Virus record (IMG/VR): IMGVR_UViG_3300030333_002569
Span: 2,531-22,896 of that record
Source of the DNA: a virus
Strand: one strand, 5' to 3'
DNA length: 20,366 nucleotides
Positions within the stretch are counted from its first letter, which is position 1. The number at the start of each line of letters is the position of its first letter. The translations under genes and the position numbers were made by a program. Shown piece after piece: positions 6,864 through 18,128 of this stretch. The notes under the pieces are model-generated. The model searched no databases. It saw only the letters and a program-made list of their open reading frames with translations, and was not told the DNA's origin.

Positions 6864-7238
6864 ATGGCATATTCATCGACAATCAAATTAGTAGTAGGGG
6901 ATACTCTCCCCGTTTTGAACTTTACGCTAAAGGATAGTAATACTGCCGCTTCCGGGGCAACCCTAGATGCTGAGGATTCAGACACTTGGGCGCCTATAAA
7001 CCTAACTGGAGGCACAGTAAAACTTAGAATCCGTGAAGTAGGTTCAACTACTGTCTCTTCTACAATCACTTGCGCTCTTGTTTCAGCGGCAAACGGAACG
7101 TGTACATGTACATTTCCTAGTGGCACGTGGACCGCAGCAGGCACTTTCGAGGGTGAAATTGAATACACGACGTCTGCATCTGCAGTACAAACGGTTCAAG
7201 ATTTTATTAAGTTTGTAGTTAGAGACGATTTTGATTAA
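6864..7238 (+). CDS. BppU-N-like beta-sandwich phage structural protein
   Basis: A 124-residue protein beginning MAYSSTIKLVVGDTLPVLNF. The order is a GDTLPVLNFTLKD strand, a loop, NLTGGTVKLRIRE, a Val/Thr-rich strand, then GTFEGEIEY and a closing FIKFVVRD strand. This is the pattern of the Ig-like N-terminal domain of baseplate upper proteins (BppU_N) and similar small phage tail or neck proteins. It probably builds part of the virion surface or connects fibres. The start is set by the 30-base gap after the giant gene; the ribosome site (AGAGAA, 6853-6858) is weak. Its stop codon shares one base with the next start (TAATG), so the two are probably translationally coupled. The fold is reasonably clear; the exact role is inferred. 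Confidence 0.6.
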   Translation: MAYSSTIKLVVGDTLPVLNFTLKDSNTAASGATLDAEDSDTWAPINLTGGTVKLRIREVGSTTVSSTITCALVSAANGTCTCTFPSGTWTAAGTFEGEIEYTTSASAVQTVQDFIKFVVRDDFD

Positions 7239-8266
7239 TGGCATTTAAAATAACAGTTGATTACGTTGATTTAAAATTAACGATTGATACTGATTCTGTG
7301 GAGTCAGTGTCTACTTTTGTATTTGCAAAATCTACTGTTACTTATGTCGCTCTTCAAAACACCTTAGATTACATTAACTTAACTGCTGCAGACATTATTA
7401 CGGATGCAGACAGTAAGAACCTTTACTTTACTACAGAGCATAACTATTGGGGACAAGACGAGGCTGACTTTAAAGTCACTATGTCCGATGCTTTATCTTC
7501 GTTGGCAACTAGTTTAGCCAAGGCAGATGCTGCTACGTTTGATGCAGAAAATGAAACTGTGGCTAAAGCGCTTAGTACAGCTAAGTCTGAAACAGTGTCT
7601 TTGGCAGAGTCTTTATCTAAAACAATGCACTTTGTTAGAGCTTTTGCGGATACACCATCTGTAACAGAACAACTGTCGTATAGTTTAGGTAAAGCAGCTT
7701 CTGATACATTTAATTTTTCAGAAGCACAAACATTTAATTTTTCAAAACAGCCGACAGGAGATACAGTGGGGGCCAGTGATGCACTAGAATATGACCTCGA
7801 CTATACAATTGCGGATAGTTTTTCTTTTTCAGATTCCTTCAGCAGAGTCGTGCAATTTGCGCGTACTTTCTCGGATTCATTTACATTGGATGACGCAGCC
7901 AGTGTAGATGATGAGCTACAGACCGATGTAACGTTGATTAAAGGCAACATTGTGTCAGTTTCTGAAGCTCTTTCATATGCGTTTAGCACAACTGCCTCTG
8001 AAAGTGTTACAATATCAGAGAGTTTTGCGAACGCCTTTTCTACAGGTACTATTGCGGAAACAGCTAGTTTAGCTGAATCTTCAAGTTGGTCCTTTAGTAG
8101 AGGCACTCAGGCGGATTCGGTAACGATGTCAGAAGCATTAACAGCGCTGTTTAGCCCTACCTATGCAGATACTGCTTCATTATCGGATTCAATATCGGTA
8201 GAATTAACTATTGGAGGCGGGCCATTAAATACCACGGCTCTAAACTCCTCCATGTTAAATGCATAA
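7238..8266 (+). CDS. Fibrous structural protein of about 13 degenerate ~20-residue repeats
   Basis: 342 residues, start overlapping the previous stop by one base. Residues 1-73 form a mixed beta-like head domain. Residues 74-325 are about 13 units of 18-24 residues, each beginning near [D/E][S/T]xx[aromatic/aliphatic][S/T][D/E][A/S][L/F], for example ADSVTMSEAL and ADTASLSDSI. The protein ends in a Gly-rich turn and an Asn/Leu-rich tail (LNTTALNSSMLNA). There is no cysteine, signal peptide or membrane segment. The regular spacing and Ser/Thr/Asp-rich composition suggest an elongated fibre or solenoid on the virion. Its place between a BppU-like protein and the fibre genes supports a structural role. 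I do not recognise a named family; the function is unknown. Confidence 0.75.
   Translation: MAFKITVDYVDLKLTIDTDSVESVSTFVFAKSTVTYVALQNTLDYINLTAADIITDADSKNLYFTTEHNYWGQDEADFKVTMSDALSSLATSLAKADAATFDAENETVAKALSTAKSETVSLAESLSKTMHFVRAFADTPSVTEQLSYSLGKAASDTFNFSEAQTFNFSKQPTGDTVGASDALEYDLDYTIADSFSFSDSFSRVVQFARTFSDSFTLDDAASVDDELQTDVTLIKGNIVSVSEALSYAFSTTASESVTISESFANAFSTGTIAETASLAESSSWSFSRGTQADSVTMSEALTALFSPTYADTASLSDSISVELTIGGGPLNTTALNSSMLNA
7457..8212 (+). repeat. Protein-level tandem repeats, about 13 units of 18-24 codons
   Basis: Units start at roughly residues 74, 98, 118, 138, 156, 175, 193, 213, 237, 255, 274, 293 and 311 of the encoded protein. DNA identity between units is low while the amino-acid pattern is kept. 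These are therefore old, selected protein repeats, not recent tandem duplications. Confidence 0.65.
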
Positions 8267-8275
8267 GAGGTAATT

Positions 8276-8707
8276 ATGTCAGGCATAAATGATCAACTAC
8301 AGCTAAAAGGACACCTACAGATCCATCTTAACGATGAACTTGTACAGGACGTTGACAACTTGGTTGTTACAGCTGGTAAAAACTACGTTGCAAGCAGAAT
8401 AAAAGATGCTTCAGCAACTGCCATGTCACACATGGCTGTTGGCTCTGGTACTACTGCTGCTGCAGCTGGAAACACTGCTCTTGGTTCTGAACTAGGGCGT
8501 GTATCACTTACCAGTACTTCTGTTTCTAACGCCGTTGTTACTTATACAGCTACATTTGCAGCTGGTACAGGTACAGGTGCGGTAACAGAAGCAGGCATCT
8601 TGAACGCAAGTTCTAGTGGTACTATGTTGTGTAGAACAGTCTTTTCTGTAGTAAACAAAGGCGCTAATGACTCCATGACTGTCACTTGGACTGTAACTGT
8701 TAGTTAA
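8276..8707 (+). CDS. Conserved small phage structural protein (fibre- or collar-associated, family not named)
   Basis: 143 residues starting at an ATG preceded by AGAGGT (8266-8271), a good Shine-Dalgarno at the right distance. The N-terminal part (LKGHLQIHLNDELVQDVDNLVVTAG) and the later AVGSGTTAAAAGNTALGSELGRVSL, TEAGILN and LCRTVFSVVNKG segments match a protein type I recall beside tail-fibre genes in many marine and environmental phages. It is rich in Ala, Thr and Ser with beta-strand spacing, and has no signal peptide or membrane segment. It probably belongs to the virion, perhaps as a fibre connector or decoration. Existence as a gene is near certain; the role is inferred from position and composition. 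Confidence 0.7.
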   Translation: MSGINDQLQLKGHLQIHLNDELVQDVDNLVVTAGKNYVASRIKDASATAMSHMAVGSGTTAAAAGNTALGSELGRVSLTSTSVSNAVVTYTATFAAGTGTGAVTEAGILNASSSGTMLCRTVFSVVNKGANDSMTVTWTVTVS

Positions 8708-8720: not shown

Positions 8721-11573
8721 GTGGGCGTACTGTTTACAAATAACGCCAGCACTACTCTTTCTGCTGCGATTAGTAGTACAAGTGCTACAAGTATTAGTGT
8801 GGCGAGTAGCTCAACCTTCCCTGCTCCAGGAGCGGGCGAGTACTTCTACGCCACAATAGATGACGGCAGTAACATTGAAATAGTCAAGGTTACAGCGGTT
8901 AGCGGTACAACGTGGACCGTGGTTCGTGGATCGGACAACACGACCGCTGCTACGTTTGCGAACGGCACTACAATACAACTACGTGCTGCAGCTGCGTTGT
9001 TAACGGATATTCAACAGAATATCGCGGCTAAGTCAGCTAACCAAACAGTCTACAACGCGACAACGGCAAGCAGTGCGACATCGTATGATGTTGGTACTAA
9101 TCCGCAGAATGAGAATAATGCGATGGTGTTTTTAGATGGTGTCATGCAACACCATGACACTTTTTCGTTCAGTGGTTCAACACTGACGTTTGACGCTGCG
9201 CCATCGAATGGTTTAAAACTCGAGGTTATCATAGATAACCTTATCAACCTACAAAGCTCTAATTTGACAGTAGACACATTTACTGCAACCAACGGGCAAA
9301 CAGCTTTTACTTTAAGTGATACACCAGCGGCAGAAGATAATCTGATCGTATTTATTGAGGGTGTATTCCAAAACCAAGATTCATACACTATTTCTAACAA
9401 CGTTTTGACAATGTCTGCAGGCGTTACGACGGGTAGGAAGGTAGTTGTCTATGTTATCAACCCCGTCAATATCGGTACTCCTAGCGATGGTACTGTTACT
9501 TCAGCAAAACTCTCAGGTAATATCACGATGCCAGGCACTTTGACCGTTGGCTCGAATGACGTTGCCTTCGATTCTCCTACTTTTGTAGTCGATAACGCAA
9601 ACTCGCGGGTGGGTTTGGGTACGGCGAGCCCGTCTGTGCCTGTAGATATTGTTGGCGATGTGAAGATGTCTTCTACTTTAGATCTAACTTCTCATCTGGA
9701 TATGCCAGATAACGCTAAGATAAAACTAGGTACAGGGGACGACTTAGAGATTTATCACGACGGTTCACATAACTATATTGACGCTGTAACTGGAGACCAA
9801 GACATTATCTTTAAAGGTACAGACAGTAGTTCTGATATAACAGCTCTTACCCTTGATATGTCAGACTTAGGTTCAGCTAAATTTAACGGACCAAATCTTA
9901 ATATTACAGCAGATGATGCTCGTCTTTTGGTAGAAGAAGCCGATGGAACAAACATTGGATGGTTTGGAGATATAACAGGTGGAGGTGTAGGTGGATGTTT
10001 CCTTTATAATCATGGTGGCACTGCAACAGTACAAATAAGAGCAGATGCTACTGCTGGATTTATAAATAATGGAGCTAATTTTGGAATTGGAACCGATAGT
10101 CCTGCAAGAAATTTAGTCGTAAGTTCTTCGGGTCAAACAGATGTAGCAATTGTTGCAGGTACTACTTCATCAGCACAATTACAGTTTGGAGATTCAGGTG
10201 ACGATAATATAGGTCAGATTGAATATAACAACAGTGAAAACTCTATGTCATTTTTTACTAATGCAACTGAAAGAGTATTCATAAACTCATCAGGTAATGT
10301 TGGTATCGGAACCACCTCAGTAAACGGAAGACTTCATAGTGAAGACTCAACCGCAGGAAACTGGGTAGGTTATTTTAATAATACAGGTACTGGTGGTGCA
10401 GGTGTATTAATCAAAAGTGCTGGCGCAACAGGAAGTGAAAATTTATTAGATGTTAGAAATGGAGATGGAACTGTATTTAAAATAGCTCAATCTAGTGGTG
10501 ACGTAACTCTCAGTGGCAACCTTTCAATGACATCAAATGTTATATATGCAAGCCAAATATATGTAAATGACAGAGTAGGACATAGAGATGATGCAAGTAC
10601 CTTTATAGATTTTGACACTGACACAATAAAGTTTGCTACAGATGGCGAAGCTATGAGAATAGATTCAAACAAAAATATTGGTTTTGGTACTACAACCCTG
10701 CCGACTGGTATGGGTTCTAGCTCGTATAAACAGTTTAAAATCGGTGGGGGTATATTAGCAGATTCAGGACACTCTTCAGGACATAACATAATGTTAGGAA
10801 ATAATGTTTATGTAGGAGCAAGTAACGATCTCAAATTCACTCATGCTGCGGCTGCTTCAGTAATCAATATGACAAGTGGTGATATCAATTTTAGAACGCA
10901 TGATGGCGGTGGAGCTTCAGCAGATGCTACAGCTTCATTAACTAGTAGATTCTACATAAAAGAAAATGGAAATATTGGAGTCGGAACCACAAGCCCTTCA
11001 GCTCCTTTTCACATTGCAGGTGGAAACCCTAATAGTACAGCCGATTCTGTTTTCCATGTTTCAAAAACAGGAGCAAATGATTTTACTTGTTGGTTAGGTT
11101 CAGGTGCAGATGATTATGGCTTAGGAATCAGAGGCGTAGGTAATTACGCTTTCGCAGTTTACGACCATAATGCAGGTGCTTATAGAGCAAGATTGCAATT
11201 CGGTGGAGATTTATATCTACAAAACACAACTGTCAACTCAATATCAGACAGAAGATTAAAGAAAAACATAGTTGATGCAAATTCACAGTGGAACGACATA
11301 AAAGCATTAAGATGGAGAAATTTTGAATGGAAAGAGGAACATCTCGATGGAACATATCTTGGCTTGATTGCAGATGAGGTAGAAGCCGTATCGCCTAACC
11401 TTGTAGAAATAAACGCACAACCAAAAGAAGATATTGATGCAGGGATAGAAGACCCTGAACATAAAGCGGTGAAATATTCTATTGTATGGATGAAAGCCAT
11501 GAAAGCATTACAAGAAGCTCAAGAAAGAATTGAAACACTAGAAGCAAAAGTACAAGCATTGGAGAGTAGCTAA
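8721..11573 (+). CDS. Tail fibre 1: virion-anchor domain, repeat shaft, C-terminal peptidase S74 chaperone
   Basis: 950 residues, GTG start. Residues 1-95 form an anchor-type domain (FTNNASTTL, EYFYATIDD, EIVKVTAVSGTTWTVVRG). Two tandem copies of a small beta module follow, at about 109-172 and 184-247 (MVFLDGVMQHHDTF versus IVFIEGVFQNQDSY). The shaft carries VGLG/GIGT-type repeats and the DNAKIKLGTGDDLEIYHDGS module seen in marine phage fibres. Residues 842-950 are a peptidase S74 domain: S842-D843, L846 and K847 keep the Ser/Lys spacing of endosialidase-type chaperones, which trimerise the fibre and then cut before the serine. A coiled coil ends the protein. Codon use changes near codons 330-400 (see findings). 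The stop overlaps the next start (TAATG). Confidence 0.9.
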   Translation: MGVLFTNNASTTLSAAISSTSATSISVASSSTFPAPGAGEYFYATIDDGSNIEIVKVTAVSGTTWTVVRGSDNTTAATFANGTTIQLRAAAALLTDIQQNIAAKSANQTVYNATTASSATSYDVGTNPQNENNAMVFLDGVMQHHDTFSFSGSTLTFDAAPSNGLKLEVIIDNLINLQSSNLTVDTFTATNGQTAFTLSDTPAAEDNLIVFIEGVFQNQDSYTISNNVLTMSAGVTTGRKVVVYVINPVNIGTPSDGTVTSAKLSGNITMPGTLTVGSNDVAFDSPTFVVDNANSRVGLGTASPSVPVDIVGDVKMSSTLDLTSHLDMPDNAKIKLGTGDDLEIYHDGSHNYIDAVTGDQDIIFKGTDSSSDITALTLDMSDLGSAKFNGPNLNITADDARLLVEEADGTNIGWFGDITGGGVGGCFLYNHGGTATVQIRADATAGFINNGANFGIGTDSPARNLVVSSSGQTDVAIVAGTTSSAQLQFGDSGDDNIGQIEYNNSENSMSFFTNATERVFINSSGNVGIGTTSVNGRLHSEDSTAGNWVGYFNNTGTGGAGVLIKSAGATGSENLLDVRNGDGTVFKIAQSSGDVTLSGNLSMTSNVIYASQIYVNDRVGHRDDASTFIDFDTDTIKFATDGEAMRIDSNKNIGFGTTTLPTGMGSSSYKQFKIGGGILADSGHSSGHNIMLGNNVYVGASNDLKFTHAAAASVINMTSGDINFRTHDGGGASADATASLTSRFYIKENGNIGVGTTSPSAPFHIAGGNPNSTADSVFHVSKTGANDFTCWLGSGADDYGLGIRGVGNYAFAVYDHNAGAYRARLQFGGDLYLQNTTVNSISDRRLKKNIVDANSQWNDIKALRWRNFEWKEEHLDGTYLGLIADEVEAVSPNLVEINAQPKEDIDAGIEDPEHKAVKYSIVWMKAMKALQEAQERIETLEAKVQALESS
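9045..9461 (+). repeat. Two tandem copies of a ~64-residue beta module in fibre 1
   Basis: Copy 1 (about 9045-9236) and copy 2 (about 9270-9461) share the order: Thr/Ala-rich strand, NxxxVFxxGVxQxxDxxxxS, a short strand, then Gly-Leu/Arg-Lys and a Val/Ile-rich strand. Similarity is clear in protein and weak in DNA. Confidence 0.6.
9139..9165 (+). terminator. Terminator-like hairpin inside fibre 1 (weak candidate)
   Basis: GTGTCATG (9139-9146) pairs perfectly with CATGACAC (9153-9160) around a six-base loop and is followed by five T (9161-9165). This is the form of a Rho-independent terminator, but the stem is only half G+C and it lies in a coding region, where it encodes part of a DGVMQHHDTF stretch. 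It may be chance. Confidence 0.2.
11244..11570 (+). other. Peptidase S74 (intramolecular chaperone) domain of fibre 1
   Basis: It starts at the predicted cleavage serine (codon 842) in ISDRRLKKNI and runs 109 residues to the end, through GLIADEVEAVSP and a terminal coiled coil. Catalytic Ser and Lys are five residues apart, as in the known self-cleaving members. Confidence 0.85.
11561..11564 (+). promoter_or_regulatory. Shine-Dalgarno for fibre 2, embedded in the last codons of fibre 1
   Basis: GGAG within the codons for the terminal Leu-Glu-Ser-Ser of fibre 1 lies eight bases before the ATG at 11573, which shares a base with the fibre 1 stop. Translation of fibre 2 is therefore probably coupled to fibre 1. 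Confidence 0.7.
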
Positions 11574-13573
11574 TGGCTAACACTAAGATAACAACGAACG
11601 TAATAGCAGACGACGCTATAACTCTAGATAAAATGGCAGGCCTTGCCAGAGGTAAAATTATCTATGGTGATAGTAATGGCAACCCAGCTGCTTTGGCTGT
11701 AGGTTCAAATGGCCAGGTACTTAAATCTGATGGCACGGATATAGCTTGGGGGACTGATAGTTCAGGGGTAGCATTAGACGACATATCTACAGGTGATGCA
11801 GCAACAACATTAGCAACTTCAGCAGGTAACATAACTATAGATGCACAAGGTAATGATACAGATATTATATTTAAAGGAACAGATGGAAGTTCTGACACAA
11901 CCTTCTTAACACTTGATGGGTCAGAAGCAGGAACAGCTACTTTTAATTCAGGGGTTGTTGTTGGTGGTGATATAACAAAAGGATCAGGTGAGTTTAAAAT
12001 TAAAAATACTGCCAATGGTCAAAATGTTGGCATATATACAACATCAAGTAGTTCAGAACTTCATGCACTAAAGATACATTCAGGCGGTAATGTTGAAGTT
12101 AAAAATGGTCCGCTAACTGTCGCAAATGGTCAGTCAGTCATGTCTACTGCTACATCTTGGGGAGCAGGCTTAACGATCAAAGCAACAAACGATGATGCAA
12201 GTCCTGCATATTTGAGTTTACACAAAGACCCTGCATCAGGTCACAGCACAATAGCTGATAATGATTATATTGGCTTTATAAATATGAGATCAGTTGATGG
12301 CAATGGTAATGCACATACTTACGTTGAGTTAACAGGTGTGGCTACTAATGTATCTCATGGCGGAGAAACAAGTAAATTATCTATCGGTACTTGGGGAGCA
12401 GGGACAGAATACAGTAGCAATCTTGTTGTATCAGGCGGACAAGTTGCTATCAATGGAGTGCCTAGTACATACAATGCAAACGCAAGAGACTTAGTTATTA
12501 GAAGTTATGATGGTGGAAATGTTGGTATGACCTTATCTTGTGGTGCTAGTAATGATGGTTTTATTGGTTTTTCTAATGGTGAAGATACAGGACTACATGG
12601 CTTAATACAATATGACCATGCTACAGATTCTATGCACTTTAGAACCAATGATGTTGATAGTCGTTTAATGATAGACTCATCTGGATCGGTTGGTATCGGA
12701 AACACAAATCCAAGCGGTATGCACTCAATGGTCAACAAACTTGTAGTTGGTTCAGGTTCAGGTAATCAAGGTTTAGCGATATATTCAGGTGCCGGTAGTG
12801 AAGGTGCTATTGGCTTTGCTAGAGACATTGCCGCTAACTCAGATGCCTATGATGGATTAATTGAATACAGTCAAGCCGATAGGTCAATGCGTTTTGGTAC
12901 AAATGCGGGTACAGAACGCATGAGATTAAAAACAGGTTTATCTATAGGTTCGGCAACTGATCCCGGCGCTTCTAATTTACTTGTCGCAGGTGTAATCAAA
13001 GTAGGTGCTGCTAGTCCTTCTCTTGCAGGTCTTGTTAGTATTCAAGATGGTAATCCGGGAGTTCCTGCTCTTTTCGTTTATAATACAAACGCTGATTCAG
13101 TTGGTATTAGGTCGCAAGTTAATAGCAGTGCTTCATCAAATTATATTTATTATGGTGTCAACTCAGGTGGAGGTGTATGGCAAATTAGAAACGATGGCGA
13201 CCATCAAGGTACAGATACAAGCATTGGTTCGCTTTCTGATTCAAGACTTAAAAAAGATGTAACTGATTTAACTTATGATATTGATAAATTCAAACAATAC
13301 AGACCCATTGAATTTAATTGGATAAATCCTGAATTACATAAAGCAGCTTCAGGCAAATCAAGAGGTTTCTTAGCTCAAGAAGTAAAAGCTTTAGATGACT
13401 ATTATGTTGACCAATACGATGCAGAAGGAGCCGACCTTTCTTTAGTAGATGCAGATAAAAAAGCATACTCAACAAAATTTGGATATAAAGATGCAATGTA
13501 TATATCAGTAATCAAACAACTCATAACAAGATTAGAAGCTGCGGAAGCCAAGATCACAGCACTAGAGGGATAA
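11573..13573 (+). CDS. Tail fibre 2 with C-terminal peptidase S74 chaperone
   Basis: 666 residues. The N-terminus (MANTKITTNVIADDAITLDK, then GKIIYGDSNGNPAALAVGSN) is a start type I know from cyanophage and other marine phage fibres; it lacks the anchor domain of fibre 1. A DIIFKGTDGSSDTTFLTLDG module (codons 97-116) repeats one in fibre 1. The shaft has VGIGNTNPSG-type repeats. Residues 555-666 are a peptidase S74 domain with S555-D556 and K560 intact and a FLAQEVKALDDYYVD segment. It is longer than, and only distantly like, the S74 domains on either side. It should fold as a trimer, cleave itself and act in host binding. Without an anchor of its own it may attach to fibre 1 or another tail part. 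One base overlaps the upstream stop. Confidence 0.88.
   Translation: MANTKITTNVIADDAITLDKMAGLARGKIIYGDSNGNPAALAVGSNGQVLKSDGTDIAWGTDSSGVALDDISTGDAATTLATSAGNITIDAQGNDTDIIFKGTDGSSDTTFLTLDGSEAGTATFNSGVVVGGDITKGSGEFKIKNTANGQNVGIYTTSSSSELHALKIHSGGNVEVKNGPLTVANGQSVMSTATSWGAGLTIKATNDDASPAYLSLHKDPASGHSTIADNDYIGFINMRSVDGNGNAHTYVELTGVATNVSHGGETSKLSIGTWGAGTEYSSNLVVSGGQVAINGVPSTYNANARDLVIRSYDGGNVGMTLSCGASNDGFIGFSNGEDTGLHGLIQYDHATDSMHFRTNDVDSRLMIDSSGSVGIGNTNPSGMHSMVNKLVVGSGSGNQGLAIYSGAGSEGAIGFARDIAANSDAYDGLIEYSQADRSMRFGTNAGTERMRLKTGLSIGSATDPGASNLLVAGVIKVGAASPSLAGLVSIQDGNPGVPALFVYNTNADSVGIRSQVNSSASSNYIYYGVNSGGGVWQIRNDGDHQGTDTSIGSLSDSRLKKDVTDLTYDIDKFKQYRPIEFNWINPELHKAASGKSRGFLAQEVKALDDYYVDQYDAEGADLSLVDADKKAYSTKFGYKDAMYISVIKQLITRLEAAEAKITALEG
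13235..13570 (+). other. Peptidase S74 domain of fibre 2
   Basis: Predicted cleavage serine at codon 555 in LSDSRLKKDV and lysine at codon 560. The domain is 112 residues, including an insertion (YDAEGADLSLVDADKK) absent from the neighbours, and a short coiled-coil end. Confidence 0.82.
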
Positions 13574-13574
13574 T

Positions 13575-15491
13575 ATGGCATTAACAAAAGTAACAGGTGA
13601 ATTAGTAGACATTGGTGATTTAGATATCTCCAATGTTGGTAGTATTCAATTAGACAGTATCGCAGGGGATGCTGATACAAACACTACAATTGCGTTCCCT
13701 GGGTCTGATGTCATTACTATGTCTACTGGAGGAAGCGAAAGGCTTCGTGTGGATGCTTCAGGAAGGTTATTTGTAGGACAAACAGCAAGTAGTGGTGTTA
13801 GAAGTACTGATCCTGAAGTACAAGTATCAGGAACAGATTTATCAACTTCTTCACTAGCTTTACATAGGTATCAAGCTAATGCATACGGACCTTATTTACA
13901 TTTTGCTAAAAGCAGGAATGGCACTGTAGGCTCACATACCATAGTACAAGATGGTGATGTAGTAGGAGCTTTAGGTTTCTATCCTTCTGATGGGAATGAT
14001 TTTGTAAGTCATTGCGCAGAAATAGTAGTTCAGGTTGATGGGACTCCCGGCAGTGATGATGTTCCCGGTAGAATAATTTTTAAAACTACAGCAGATGGTG
14101 CTGCTGCTTCAACTGAAAGAATGAGAATTACTTCAGCTGGAGAGGTTGGAATCGGAACTGCAAGCCCTGCTAGAGAGCTTCATGTTCATAAAGCATCAAG
14201 TGGTGCTACTTCAACTTCAAATAGTGTTCTCGTAGTAGAAGATGATGATAATACCGAACTAAGCATTTTAGGTGGGAGTTCGTCTGTATTAGCGATTAAC
14301 TTTGGGCATAGTGGTGATAATGATGAAGGAATAATATCTTTTAATACCACTTCAGGTTCAGAAGAATTAGGGCTTTCATCAAGTAAAGATATTACTTATA
14401 AAGTAACTTCAACAAACTCAACAGCAGGACATCACATATTCAAATCTTATAACACAGAGATTATGAGAATTGATGGTGGCACTAATCATGTTGGAATCGG
14501 AGCTACAAGCCCAGATACAGAACTTCATGTAGCTGCATCAAATAGCTCTGCCGGCACTTTGTATACAGCAGTTGGATCAGGTAATGTACCAAGTATCACT
14601 ATTCAAAACTCTAGTACAACAGATGATGTTAATGCTGCATTATTTTTTAAAGATAATAGTGGTATGCGTGCTTCCATAGGGGCAAGATTTGTTAGTCATG
14701 CAAGCGGAGATCAAAAAGCCCAACTTAGGTTTAGTGTTACTGGTTCAGGAACCACTAGAGAGAAAATGGTTTTAACAGAAGATGGTAATCTTTCGCTTGG
14801 TGCTGAAACCGCAAATCATAAAATAGAAGCCCACAGTGGCGCAGTCGCTTCAAAGTATGATGGAGACCATCACGTTGCGATTAGAGGATTGTCAGGCGGT
14901 CAATATATTCAGTATTCATCAGCCAACCCATTAGAATTTGTTTCTATAGACACCTATCCAAACTCAGGCGCAACAAGCAGAGCAAGATTAACCACGAATG
15001 GTCATTGGTTGGTGGGGACTAATTCATCAACAATCAATTCTTCTAATTTTGGAGTCTGTTTATTTGCTGATGGCAGACCCAAAACTTCTAAAAATGTGGA
15101 TGGTGGAAGCCATGTGATGAATGTATACGGAAATGCTGGTGAGTTCAGGGTTTATGGTGATGGAGATGTTCTAAATACCAATAACTCTTACGGACAGATA
15201 TCAGATGTCAGCCTCAAAGAAAACATTGTTGATGCAACCAGTAAGTTGGCAGATATAAACAAAGTGAAAGTTAGAAACTTTAATTTTATTGGTGACGATC
15301 TAAAACAAATCGGAGTAATCGCTCAAGAACTAGAAACTATTTTTCCTTCATTAGTCACAATTGATGAAGAAGAAGATGTCAAAACAGTTAAATATTCTGT
15401 GTTTGTACCAATATTAATTAAAGCCTTGCAAGAAGCAGACGATAAAATAGATGCTTTAGAAGCAAGAATTGCAACATTGGAGAGTAGTTAA
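13575..15491 (+). CDS. Tail fibre 3 with C-terminal peptidase S74 chaperone
   Basis: 638 residues, starting one base after the stop of fibre 2, with AGAGGG-like sequence upstream. It opens MALTKVTGELVDIGDLDISN, then TIAFPGSDVITMSTGGSERLRVDASGR, a short fibre start without an anchor domain. The shaft contains ERMRITSAGEVGIGTASPARELHV (in two pieces) and HVGIGATSPDTELHV repeats and a Ser/Thr-rich beta shaft. Residues 543-638 are a compact peptidase S74 domain (96 residues) with S543-D544 and K548 intact; SDVSLKEN is the most divergent of the three motifs. The end is a coiled coil whose last 72 bases match the end of fibre 1 at about 74% by hand count. It is probably a third receptor-binding or depolymerising fibre; no enzyme active site is recognised. 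Confidence 0.88.
   Translation: MALTKVTGELVDIGDLDISNVGSIQLDSIAGDADTNTTIAFPGSDVITMSTGGSERLRVDASGRLFVGQTASSGVRSTDPEVQVSGTDLSTSSLALHRYQANAYGPYLHFAKSRNGTVGSHTIVQDGDVVGALGFYPSDGNDFVSHCAEIVVQVDGTPGSDDVPGRIIFKTTADGAAASTERMRITSAGEVGIGTASPARELHVHKASSGATSTSNSVLVVEDDDNTELSILGGSSSVLAINFGHSGDNDEGIISFNTTSGSEELGLSSSKDITYKVTSTNSTAGHHIFKSYNTEIMRIDGGTNHVGIGATSPDTELHVAASNSSAGTLYTAVGSGNVPSITIQNSSTTDDVNAALFFKDNSGMRASIGARFVSHASGDQKAQLRFSVTGSGTTREKMVLTEDGNLSLGAETANHKIEAHSGAVASKYDGDHHVAIRGLSGGQYIQYSSANPLEFVSIDTYPNSGATSRARLTTNGHWLVGTNSSTINSSNFGVCLFADGRPKTSKNVDGGSHVMNVYGNAGEFRVYGDGDVLNTNNSYGQISDVSLKENIVDATSKLADINKVKVRNFNFIGDDLKQIGVIAQELETIFPSLVTIDEEEDVKTVKYSVFVPILIKALQEADDKIDALEARIATLESS
15201..15488 (+). other. Peptidase S74 domain of fibre 3
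   Basis: Cleavage serine at codon 543 in ISDVSLKENI, lysine at 548, then GVIAQELETIFPSLV and a terminal coiled coil. It is closer to the fibre 1 domain than to that of fibre 2. Confidence 0.82.
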
Positions 15492-15792: not shown

Positions 15793-16066
15793 ACGCAGAC
15801 TCGAAAGAGTTGAGGAGAAACTAGACAAATTGGCGGAAGCCGTTGTGTCTATTGCTCGTATTGAGGAACGCGTTAATACTGTACTTAAGCACCACGATAG
15901 GTTTTTTAATCGGCTAGATAGACTCGAAGCCCGAGTCGAAACTGTAGAAAACAAAAGCATGATGAATCAGAATGCTATTAGCATAGCAGAACGTTTTGTG
16001 TGGGTTGTTATTACTTCAGGAATAAGTATGTTGTTTTATTTCGGGGCAAGAAATGGCATATTTTAA
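15773..16066 (+). CDS. Coiled-coil protein with C-terminal membrane segment (XhlA/holin-accessory-like)
   Basis: 97 residues. Residues 5-62 form a heptad-like coiled coil (ERRLERVEEKLDKL, then NRLDRLEARVETVE) and residues about 75-91 a single hydrophobic segment (FVWVVITSGISMLFYF) followed by a short ARNGIF tail. A cytoplasmic coil with a C-terminal membrane anchor is the layout of XhlA-type haemolysin/holin-associated proteins. It may help lysis or anchor something to the inner membrane during infection. Its start lies inside the previous gene (20-base overlap, no clear Shine-Dalgarno) and its end overlaps the next gene by 14 bases, so translation is probably coupled. No endolysin is present in the window to support lysis by context. 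Confidence 0.55.
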   Translation: MTQAQNERRLERVEEKLDKLAEAVVSIARIEERVNTVLKHHDRFFNRLDRLEARVETVENKSMMNQNAISIAERFVWVVITSGISMLFYFGARNGIF

Positions 16067-18128
16067 AATAATAACTTTTGGTGGAATGGCTCCACAAATA
16101 TCTCCAAGGCTTCTTGCAGATGACATCGCACAAACAGCACAAGATGTTTTATTAGAAAGTAGTCGCCTTGTCCCTATTACAGACCATAGCGCTATGACAT
16201 CCAATTTAGGCGGTGGAGGTTCTACTTTAACAACTTCTGACCGTACTACTATTTATAAATACGAATATGATTCTACTTATAAATGGCTAGAATGGACAGA
16301 AGACGTAGACGTGGCTCCTGGACCTGTTGCAGGTAATACACAAGACAGACTGTATTGGACAGGGGAAGGAGGAGATTCTGGTTTCCCACGTATGAGTATT
16401 GATACTGCTATTATTAACACAAGCGGAAGTGGTAAATACCCTCGTACTTCTTATCGTTTAGGTATACCTGCCCCTACTTCTAGTGAAACACCGAGTTCAA
16501 TTATTACTGCAAGCACAGTGCAAGGTAATGCAATTACGTTTGATGGTTCTAGTTCAAGTGTTGTAGTAGTTGCAGATGAGACTATAACTGTTACGGCAGA
16601 TCAATATACAGCCTTAGCTAATGGAGATGCTGTTATTTATGGTAACGGGGGTGGTTCTGATATTGGTGGGTTAAGCAATAACACAACTTACTACGTTATT
16701 CGTGGCGCGTCCCCCAAGATTAAATTAGCAACTACGTTTGCGAATGCAATTGCTGGTAGTGCTATTAATCTTACGGCTGTGGGTTCTGGTTCTTCGCATG
16801 TGTTGACTCCTCTAGATGATGGTTCGCAAACTAAGTACAGTACATCCTACGTGTACACGTTTGTGTCCGCATATGGGGAAGAAGGACCTCCTTCTCTTGC
16901 TTCAGCTGTGTTTGACAAAGTGGATGGCCAAACTGTACAAGTAACGCTGCCTGCTACAAGTTTAAGCGGCACAGGGCGTACAAACACAAATGTTACACAC
17001 AAACGCCTGTACAGATCTAACACGGGTTCTAATACTACGGCGTTTCAATTTGTCGCTGAAATGACGCTTGGCACTACAACTTATAATGATTCTCTTGATA
17101 ACGATGAGTTAGCAGAGGTTATACCATCAACTTATTGGATCGGACCGCCAAACGAGGACACCGGTACGTATCCCGAGGGACCTATGCTTGGTCTAACTGC
17201 TATGCCAAATGGTATTTTTGCAGGGTTTAGAGGTAAAAGACTTTATTTTTCAGAGGCTTACATGCCACACGCGTGGCCCGTTAGCTACCGCATCACAATT
17301 GAAGAGGAAATTGTAGCAATAGGTATGGCAGGCAACGGGCTTATTGTCACAACTAAAGGTACACCGTACTTGGTTTCAGGTACAGATCCAAGAGCTATGC
17401 AGGTTCTACGTATTGAAGCAGCACAAGCTTGTTTAAATAAAGCATCGCTCGTGGACATGGGTGACATGGTTATGTACGCAGGTGCTGACGGACTTGTAGC
17501 CGCTGCTGGTACTGACGTGCAAGTCATTACTGAGGGTATTATTTCTCCACAACAATGGAGAACGGACTACTACCCAACAGCCTTAAAAGGTTTTAGATGG
17601 GAAGGTAAGTATGTAGGGCTATATACAAGCGGTAGTAACTATGGTGGATTTATATTTGACCCAAGAGGCGGTAAAAATACACTTGCTTTGCTTACACAAA
17701 CCAGCTCTACAGACGCAGCTGGTGGGTTTACTGACCCAGACGATAACGAACTGTATATTATTATTGATAACGCAGTTAAAAAGTTTCAGGGTGGCACTAC
17801 CTATCAAACTTTTACTTGGAAGAGTAAAGAGTTTGTGCCACCCAAACCTACAAGCATGGGGTTTTTAAAAGTTGATGCAGAGGCTTGGCCTGTAACAGTT
17901 AAAGTATACGGAGACGGTACTCTTTATTATCACGCGACAATTAGTACTTCTGGTAATGCGTATGCAGTAACTGGCTCAACTCCAAGTTTTAATGCAACAG
18001 ATATACCAGAGCCTGTAGTTAGACTACCCGCAACTGTTGCTAATTCTTTTTCAATTCAAATTGAAGCAGCTAAAGTTGTTAACGAAGTATGTATCGCGGA
18101 GTCTATAGATGAAATAAGAGGTGTATAG
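16053..18128 (+). CDS. Probable tail nozzle / tail tube-end structural protein
   Basis: 691 residues. The N-terminus (FGGMAPQISPRLLADDIAQTAQDV, in two pieces, then SSRLVPI) resembles the opening of short-tail nozzle proteins: a Gly-Gly turn, PRLL, AQxAxxVxLxSxxLxP. A beta insertion at about 160-253 (NGGGSDIGGLSNNTTYYVI ... SAINLTAVGSGSSHVLTP) is a module I recall from many marine proteins. A FnIII-like part follows at about 262-355 (TSYVYTFVSAYGEEGPPS), then repeated beta blades and a C-terminal beta domain (WKSKEFVPPKPTSMGFLKV ... ESIDEI). It would sit at the distal tail, perhaps holding the fibres. The start overlaps the previous gene by 14 bases; the stop overlaps the next start by one base. 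The nozzle role rests on motif analogy, not alignment. Confidence 0.6.
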   Translation: MAYFKIITFGGMAPQISPRLLADDIAQTAQDVLLESSRLVPITDHSAMTSNLGGGGSTLTTSDRTTIYKYEYDSTYKWLEWTEDVDVAPGPVAGNTQDRLYWTGEGGDSGFPRMSIDTAIINTSGSGKYPRTSYRLGIPAPTSSETPSSIITASTVQGNAITFDGSSSSVVVVADETITVTADQYTALANGDAVIYGNGGGSDIGGLSNNTTYYVIRGASPKIKLATTFANAIAGSAINLTAVGSGSSHVLTPLDDGSQTKYSTSYVYTFVSAYGEEGPPSLASAVFDKVDGQTVQVTLPATSLSGTGRTNTNVTHKRLYRSNTGSNTTAFQFVAEMTLGTTTYNDSLDNDELAEVIPSTYWIGPPNEDTGTYPEGPMLGLTAMPNGIFAGFRGKRLYFSEAYMPHAWPVSYRITIEEEIVAIGMAGNGLIVTTKGTPYLVSGTDPRAMQVLRIEAAQACLNKASLVDMGDMVMYAGADGLVAAAGTDVQVITEGIISPQQWRTDYYPTALKGFRWEGKYVGLYTSGSNYGGFIFDPRGGKNTLALLTQTSSTDAAGGFTDPDDNELYIIIDNAVKKFQGGTTYQTFTWKSKEFVPPKPTSMGFLKVDAEAWPVTVKVYGDGTLYYHATISTSGNAYAVTGSTPSFNATDIPEPVVRLPATVANSFSIQIEAAKVVNEVCIAESIDEIRGV

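Follow-up and report, generated by a model that had tools for sequence, protein, structure and literature searches.

Three tandem S74 fibre genes of a marine phage as the probable parts of one anchor-branched adhesin

The tailspikes of phage CBA120 assemble via T4 gp10-like XD2/XD3 domains, which bind other tailspikes (PMC8825819). In the Klebsiella KP32/KP34 and the K1-5/SP6 systems, the second receptor-binding protein opens with a peptide of 7-29 residues that presumably attaches it to a gp10-like domain (PMC6872550). A third component, the S74 intramolecular chaperone, carries a serine and a lysine five residues apart: S911/K916 in K1F, S1264/K1269 in T5 and S587/K592 in MyRF (PMC4690869, PMC8326128). 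Here we describe a locus in which likenesses to all three meet. It lies on a 22.9-kb marine bacterial virus contig (IMG/VR record IMGVR_UViG_3300030333_002569), of which the window, that is, the whole stretch of DNA analysed, covers 20.4 kb. Three fibre genes, F1, F2 and F3, stand there in tandem, all open and intact, and each ends in an S74 domain with its catalytic residues in place (Table 1). An earlier note on this DNA had described them so, with coordinates and residue numbers that proved correct. We favour, as the probable though by no means firm reading, that the three genes encode one anchor-branched adhesin of a GP4-like podovirus.

In such an adhesin the S74 chaperone at the C-terminus of each fibre would help that fibre to trimerise and would then cleave itself off before Ser842, Ser555 or Ser543. 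The GP4-type domain at its N-terminus would hold F1 on the tail, and F1 would present two XD2/XD3-like domains. The anchorless F2 and F3 would dock on these, one fibre per domain, through a short N-terminal leader, MA-x-T-K-[IV]; all three would then be present on the virion, and their differing tips would allow it to bind several surface structures. The earlier note had raised a branched adhesin as one option, and that option has gained two elements: the XD pair in F1, and a leader on F2 and F3 of the kind that accompanies XD domains elsewhere.

F1 residues 1-117 match the tail fibre of GP4 (phmmer E 3e-7; as a profile, E 8e-20) and a Foldseek comparison of the F1 anchor with the GP4 fibre agrees (TMt 0.60, 31% identity), so F1 is very probably a tail-anchored fibre. 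No GP4-type anchor domain was found in F2 or F3, just as the earlier note had held that only fibre 1 is anchored. C-terminal to the anchor lie two domains, A and B, alike and about 60 residues each, which are probably docking-type domains of the T4 gp10 XD2/XD3 kind. When a profile of this XD pair was run on the 305 open reading frames (ORFs) in 63 kb of sequence of CBA120 and G7C, along with 305 reversed ones, CBA120 TSP4 came top (E 1e-4) and TSP2 second (E 2e-3) of the 610, both on their XD2/XD3 regions. The program hhalign puts the pair on TSP4 200-246 (P 6e-5), and TSP4-N of CBA120 is the best Foldseek match of the F1 N-terminal model (E 7e-7).

The leader is plain at the start of both anchorless fibres: F2 begins MANTKITTN and F3 MALTKVTGE, and same-slot genes of related viruses begin MANTKIT, MAKTKVHGE or MALTKVTGE. 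Across 59 complete S74 genes it opens 10 of the 14 that lie directly behind another S74 gene, compared with 4 of the 45 others (Fisher 1e-5, uncorrected for relatedness). As a separate observation, a widespread phage protein of 90-105 residues (in L197-L275; L-numbers denote the fetched related loci used in our comparisons) starts MANTKITD[IV]MEWD and is encoded behind genes whose products end in DDDIPF, a tail like that of single-strand-binding proteins; its resemblance to the leader may be due to chance or otherwise.

The link between leaders and XD domains was put to a prediction fixed before the scan and based on the earlier loci, where the main fibre often had as many XD domains as there were leader fibres next to it. 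In loci retrieved solely by means of the XD pair, the registered pattern, which looked downstream only, was found in 23 of 35 independent XD clusters versus 8 of 97 XD-less clusters (Fisher 9e-11). We then recounted on both sides of the XD gene, allowing GTG and TTG starts and widening the leader to K/Q and I/V/L, in the clusters flanked by 3 kb or more to either side (n = 21). Leader fibres stood beside the XD gene in 21/21 of these, a figure that is partly after the fact because the pattern had been widened before the recount, the registered count being 23/35. Among the controls, leaders were present in 0/12 XD-less fibre loci and a scrambled motif in 1/21. Leader fibres never outnumber XD domains: the two are equal at two each in nine independent clusters and at three each in one (L342), with fewer leaders in the rest. 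Three XD-like domains together with three leader fibres in a row are seen in L342, L337 and L336. The cultured cyanophages P-SSP3 and NATL1A-7 have one gp10-like domain and one leader-like fibre each.

Leader fibres also accompany XD genes whose main fibre lacks a GP4-type anchor (L123, L130, L359, L363, L364, L397). As the association persists without that anchor, the XD gene is the common factor. This tracking of XD genes, together with the empty XD-less control loci, speaks against an alternative in which F2 and F3 sit on the virion but are attached elsewhere than to F1, be it to g143, to g124 or to proteins of 86 and 97 residues. We consider this unlikely, although g124 weakly resembles the BppU N-terminal domain and g143 the GP4 fiber I protein, both genes are kept beside F1, and two relatives, L121 and L159, have the F1 XD pair without leader fibres.

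In a wider form, M-x(1-3)-T-[KQ]-[IVL], we tentatively propose, with slightly less than even confidence, that the leader is a docking tag by which anchorless fibres plug into the gp10-like domains of main fibres across unrelated marine tailed phages, one per domain (1, 2 or 3). If so, sequence would reveal how many branches there are and which tips they bear, so that the branch number and make-up of the adhesins of uncultured marine phages would become predictable. The modules would be exchangeable between phage types, and the block of chaperone and tip would be a host-range unit common to podoviruses and long-tailed phages.

Several observations weigh against the branched arrangement. In L121 and L159 both XD domains are retained (99% identity), yet the 1-2 kb of downstream sequence covered shows no leader fibre. 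Since L146 has two XD domains and one leader, and several genes with three or four XD domains have one leader, the one-to-one rule is not strict. An unrelated family of 93-residue proteins also opens with the leader and makes up most of a DNA-pattern census of it, in which the fibre-like matches usually lie behind an S74 or XD gene; the leader on its own is thus not specific. The link to XD2/XD3 is weak in sequence: the XD-pair profile left G7C gp66 unmatched, so the assignment of the F1 pair is probable, not proven, and the F1 N-terminal model is moderate (pLDDT 63), with a TM of 0.22 to TSP4. The monomer model of the F2 tip and S74 domain was poor (pLDDT 49), gave no fold matches and was not used. 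Finally, the arginine that stands at -14 of the serine in K1F (R897) and T5 (R1250), where it acts from the neighbouring subunit, was not found in F1, F2 or F3, nor is it conserved among the marine S74 set. MyRF cleaves through its Ser/Lys dyad without a stalk arginine (PMC8326128), so the -14 arginine is not required of the S74 family.

Table 1. Features of the fibre locus, with positions in the window
Feature	Position	Strand	Evidence or remark
Fibre 1 (F1), 950 residues, GTG start	8721..11573	+	ORF; PF13884 and tail-fibre PHROGs
F1 anchor domain, residues 1-97	8721..9011	+	Homology to GP4 tail fibre residues 3-117 (8JOV)
F1 domain A, probably T4 gp10 XD2/XD3-like, residues 110-170	9048..9230	+	Profile match
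F1 domain B, probably T4 gp10 XD2/XD3-like, residues 184-244	9270..9452	+	Profile match; PF13799 DUF4183
F1 S74 intramolecular chaperone, Ser842/Lys847, 109 residues	11244..11570	+	PF13884 E 1.3e-10, residues 842-895
Fibre 2 (F2), 666 residues, anchorless	11573..13573	+	ORF; start codon overlaps F1 stop
F2 leader MANTKITTNVIADDAITLDK	11573..11632	+	Common to F2-slot genes of L158, L102, L088, L335
F2 S74, Ser555/Lys560, 112 residues	13235..13570	+	PF13884 E 2.9e-9, residues 555-607
Fibre 3 (F3), 638 residues, anchorless	13575..15491	+	ORF
F3 leader MALTKVTGELVDIGDLDISN	13575..13634	+	Conserved in F3-slot gene of L158
F3 S74, Ser543/Lys548, 96 residues	15201..15488	+	PF13884 E 4.4e-10, residues 543-594
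g124, conserved, same cassette as F1	6864..7238	+	Weak BppU N-terminal-like match, PF10651
g143, conserved, directly upstream of F1	8276..8707	+	Weakly like GP4 fiber I protein gp80
691-residue tail protein, putative tail nozzle	16053..18128	+	Homologue of GP4 8JOV chain A

All three S74 domains score well above the curated PF13884 (Peptidase_S74) cut-off of 22 bits: 41.8 bits for F1, 37.5 for F2 and 40.1 for F3. Their catalytic motifs, S842-DRRL-K847, S555-DSRL-K560 and S543-DVSL-K548, keep the five-residue spacing that the earlier note had pointed out, and the domains do differ in length (109, 112 and 96 residues from the serine to the end) and in sequence (about 41% identity between F1 and F3, about 30% between F1 and F2). 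However, S-x4-K is kept in 77/77 S74 domains from related loci; the spacing is therefore a rule of the family, and finding it shows the domains to be intact and nothing more. The F1 domain also matches the L-shaped tail fibre 8hqz (E 2e-4), and that of F3 the long tail fibre in PDB entry 6f45 (E 0.002) and the GP4 fibre 8jov (E 0.03). The F1 chaperone is predicted to be cut off before Ser842. The ratio of nonsynonymous to synonymous substitution rates (dN/dS) of the S74 parts is 0.06-0.24 in the closer comparisons and 0.48 in the most distant, which indicates purifying selection; the tips adjoining them are less constrained, with dN/dS about 0.56-0.59 in the two closest comparisons.

In a tree of the 77 S74 domains, the three from the window fall into three separate supported clades, each nearest the domain of another virus. 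This contradicts a recent tandem duplication of one fibre. That the genes are recent duplicates in no special arrangement had in its favour the repeat motifs common to the shafts and the S74 domain at all three ends; given the tree, and DNA similarity among the three genes that is confined to short stretches, we regard it as scarcely credible. The F3 domain has as its sister the S74 that L121 bears on its F1 anchor (92% identity), while that of F2 groups with L005 (98%), with the S74 on the F1 anchor of L159 (80%) and with F2 of L158. At the DNA level, L121 matches F1 across residues 1-387 (96%), continuing with F3 from residue 485 onwards (91%); L159 matches F1 across residues 1-348 (98%), continuing with F2 from residue 477 onwards (79%). 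With the tip and S74 of F3 or F2 on an F1 anchor, these loci show blocks that move between anchored and anchorless positions, and the block of tip and S74 appears to be a unit that recombines both between positions and between viruses. It is in this sense, as an evolutionary process, that the alternative host-range tips proposed in the earlier note find support.

The F3-slot gene of L158 retains the leader (71% identity to the F3 leader region over 59 residues) and has a different C-terminus without S74, and the first 60 residues of F2 and F3 recur as shaft modules inside longer fibres from other phages. F2 residues 60-135 (window 11747-11980) form a shaft module that about 100 ORFs in the fetched loci share, often at 70-85% identity, and are a candidate recombination site for tip swaps. 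When a fifth tailspike was added to kuttervirus S117, the outcome was a chimera joining the TSP4 anchor to the TSP5 receptor domain (PMC11414711), a laboratory precedent for tip exchange.

Such exchange could also be all that F2 and F3 are kept for: F1 alone would be on the virion, and recombination would move the spare tips with their S74 domains onto its anchor. L121 and L159 would be natural swaps of exactly that kind, and the S117 chimera fits as well, but the swaps are compatible with the branched adhesin too. A mere store of tips would have no need of the conserved N-terminal leaders in the F2- and F3-slot genes, nor is it suggested by three coupled genes that are all open, with their S74 residues conserved. 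No inverted repeats suited to inversion switching were found. We therefore hold the spare-tip explanation to be quite improbable.

A further possibility is that F2 and F3 act outside the virion, as soluble adhesins or decaying genes. Decay has parallels among the relatives: the F3-slot gene of L158 either lost S74 or never had it, and in L264 (2757-2850) the only leader gene behind an S74 fibre of 801 residues is an ORF of 31 residues, MANTKITNHIVDKTFISGLTAAKARIETLEG, in which the leader is joined to a coiled-coil end and which resembles the remnant of a collapsed leader fibre. The window's own ORFs are long and intact, however, the selection on their S74 domains is purifying, and the arrangement is seen again in diverged relatives, among them L102 and L335, all of which makes a role outside the virion very improbable.

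Having several S74 fibres is in itself less distinctive than the earlier note had supposed in treating it as unusual. Among 63 S74-bearing loci, 11 have two and 6 have three, with the window and the contig from which it is taken among the six, and three S74 fibre genes together are also present in L102 (nozzle 57% identical), L335, L359, L363 and L365. Cultured phages with several are NATL1A-7, in which two lie side by side, and CRP-235, in which three fall within about 15 kb. Among marine phages, a single S74 fibre is not the rule.

The F1 GTG start is preceded by an AGGAG Shine-Dalgarno-like sequence; F1 and F2 overlap by 1 nucleotide (TAATG), and F2 and F3 are separated by 1. Upstream, g143 matches PF23140 at E 0.004, below the cut-off, as well as phrog_5417, and is retained next to F1 in L158, L121, L159, L160, L102 and L262. 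The match of g124 to PF10651 (E 8.5e-4) is likewise below the cut-off, and the protein is 91-100% identical in L158/L121. Always between these two genes lies one for a 342-residue protein (window 7238-8266) with many S/T-rich repeats (SESFS, SDS-type), which matches no family with known function. Downstream, the 691-residue tail protein matches 8JOV chain A (phmmer E 1e-65) and phrog_511 (E 9e-141). The 22.9-kb contig yielded no portal or adaptor gene.

The cassette is also found in other surroundings. L159 (1-5821) has it from the 342-residue protein gene through g143 to F1, 90-99% identical, beside genes for a head completion protein (PF05521), a head-tail adaptor and tail completion. Either L159 is a phage of the long-tailed type and the adhesin module would have crossed morphotypes, or this short contig is chimeric. 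Crossing of morphotypes by adhesin modules has been reported for Alteromonas phages (PMC10579305). In L121 (10833-11827) the same cassette has one fibre and is followed by other tail genes, for a DUF7936 protein and a phrog_3287 virion protein.

The components of this locus are thus of known kinds; in the open literature searched we found no description of their combination, of the leader and its link to gp10-like domains, or of the co-occurrence of leaders with XD domains across marine phages. The fibre of the Ralstonia podophage GP4 (439 residues, 18 chains in 8JOV) is like F1 in its anchor (F1 residues 1-117); its C-terminus weakly matches the F3 S74, and GP4 chain A is homologous to the 691-residue protein. 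Unlike F1, the GP4 fibre has no match to the XD-like pair, and it is half as long; a further difference is the presence of three fibre genes in the window virus. Like F1-F3, the K1F endosialidase, T5 pb1 and MyRF have a C-terminal PF13884 domain with serine and lysine at +5, whereas the arginine at -14 of K1F and T5 is missing from F1-F3, whose cleavage is predicted. In KP32/KP34 and K1-5/SP6, the second receptor-binding protein is likewise anchorless with a short conserved N-terminal peptide (PMC6872550), but that peptide reads MALxxLV and others, compared with MAxTK[IV] here, and in KP32 group A no second protein is predicted to have a chaperone (PMC6872550), while F2 and F3 both have one. 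TSP1-4 of CBA120 and gp66/gp63.1 of G7C (PMC8825819) combine one anchored XD2/XD3-like protein with anchorless partners bearing different tips, as F1, F2 and F3 probably do. The CBA120 partners dock by head or XD2 domains, where we propose a short leader for F2 and F3, and the partners in CBA120 and G7C are lyase tailspikes, whereas F2 and F3 are fibres with S74.

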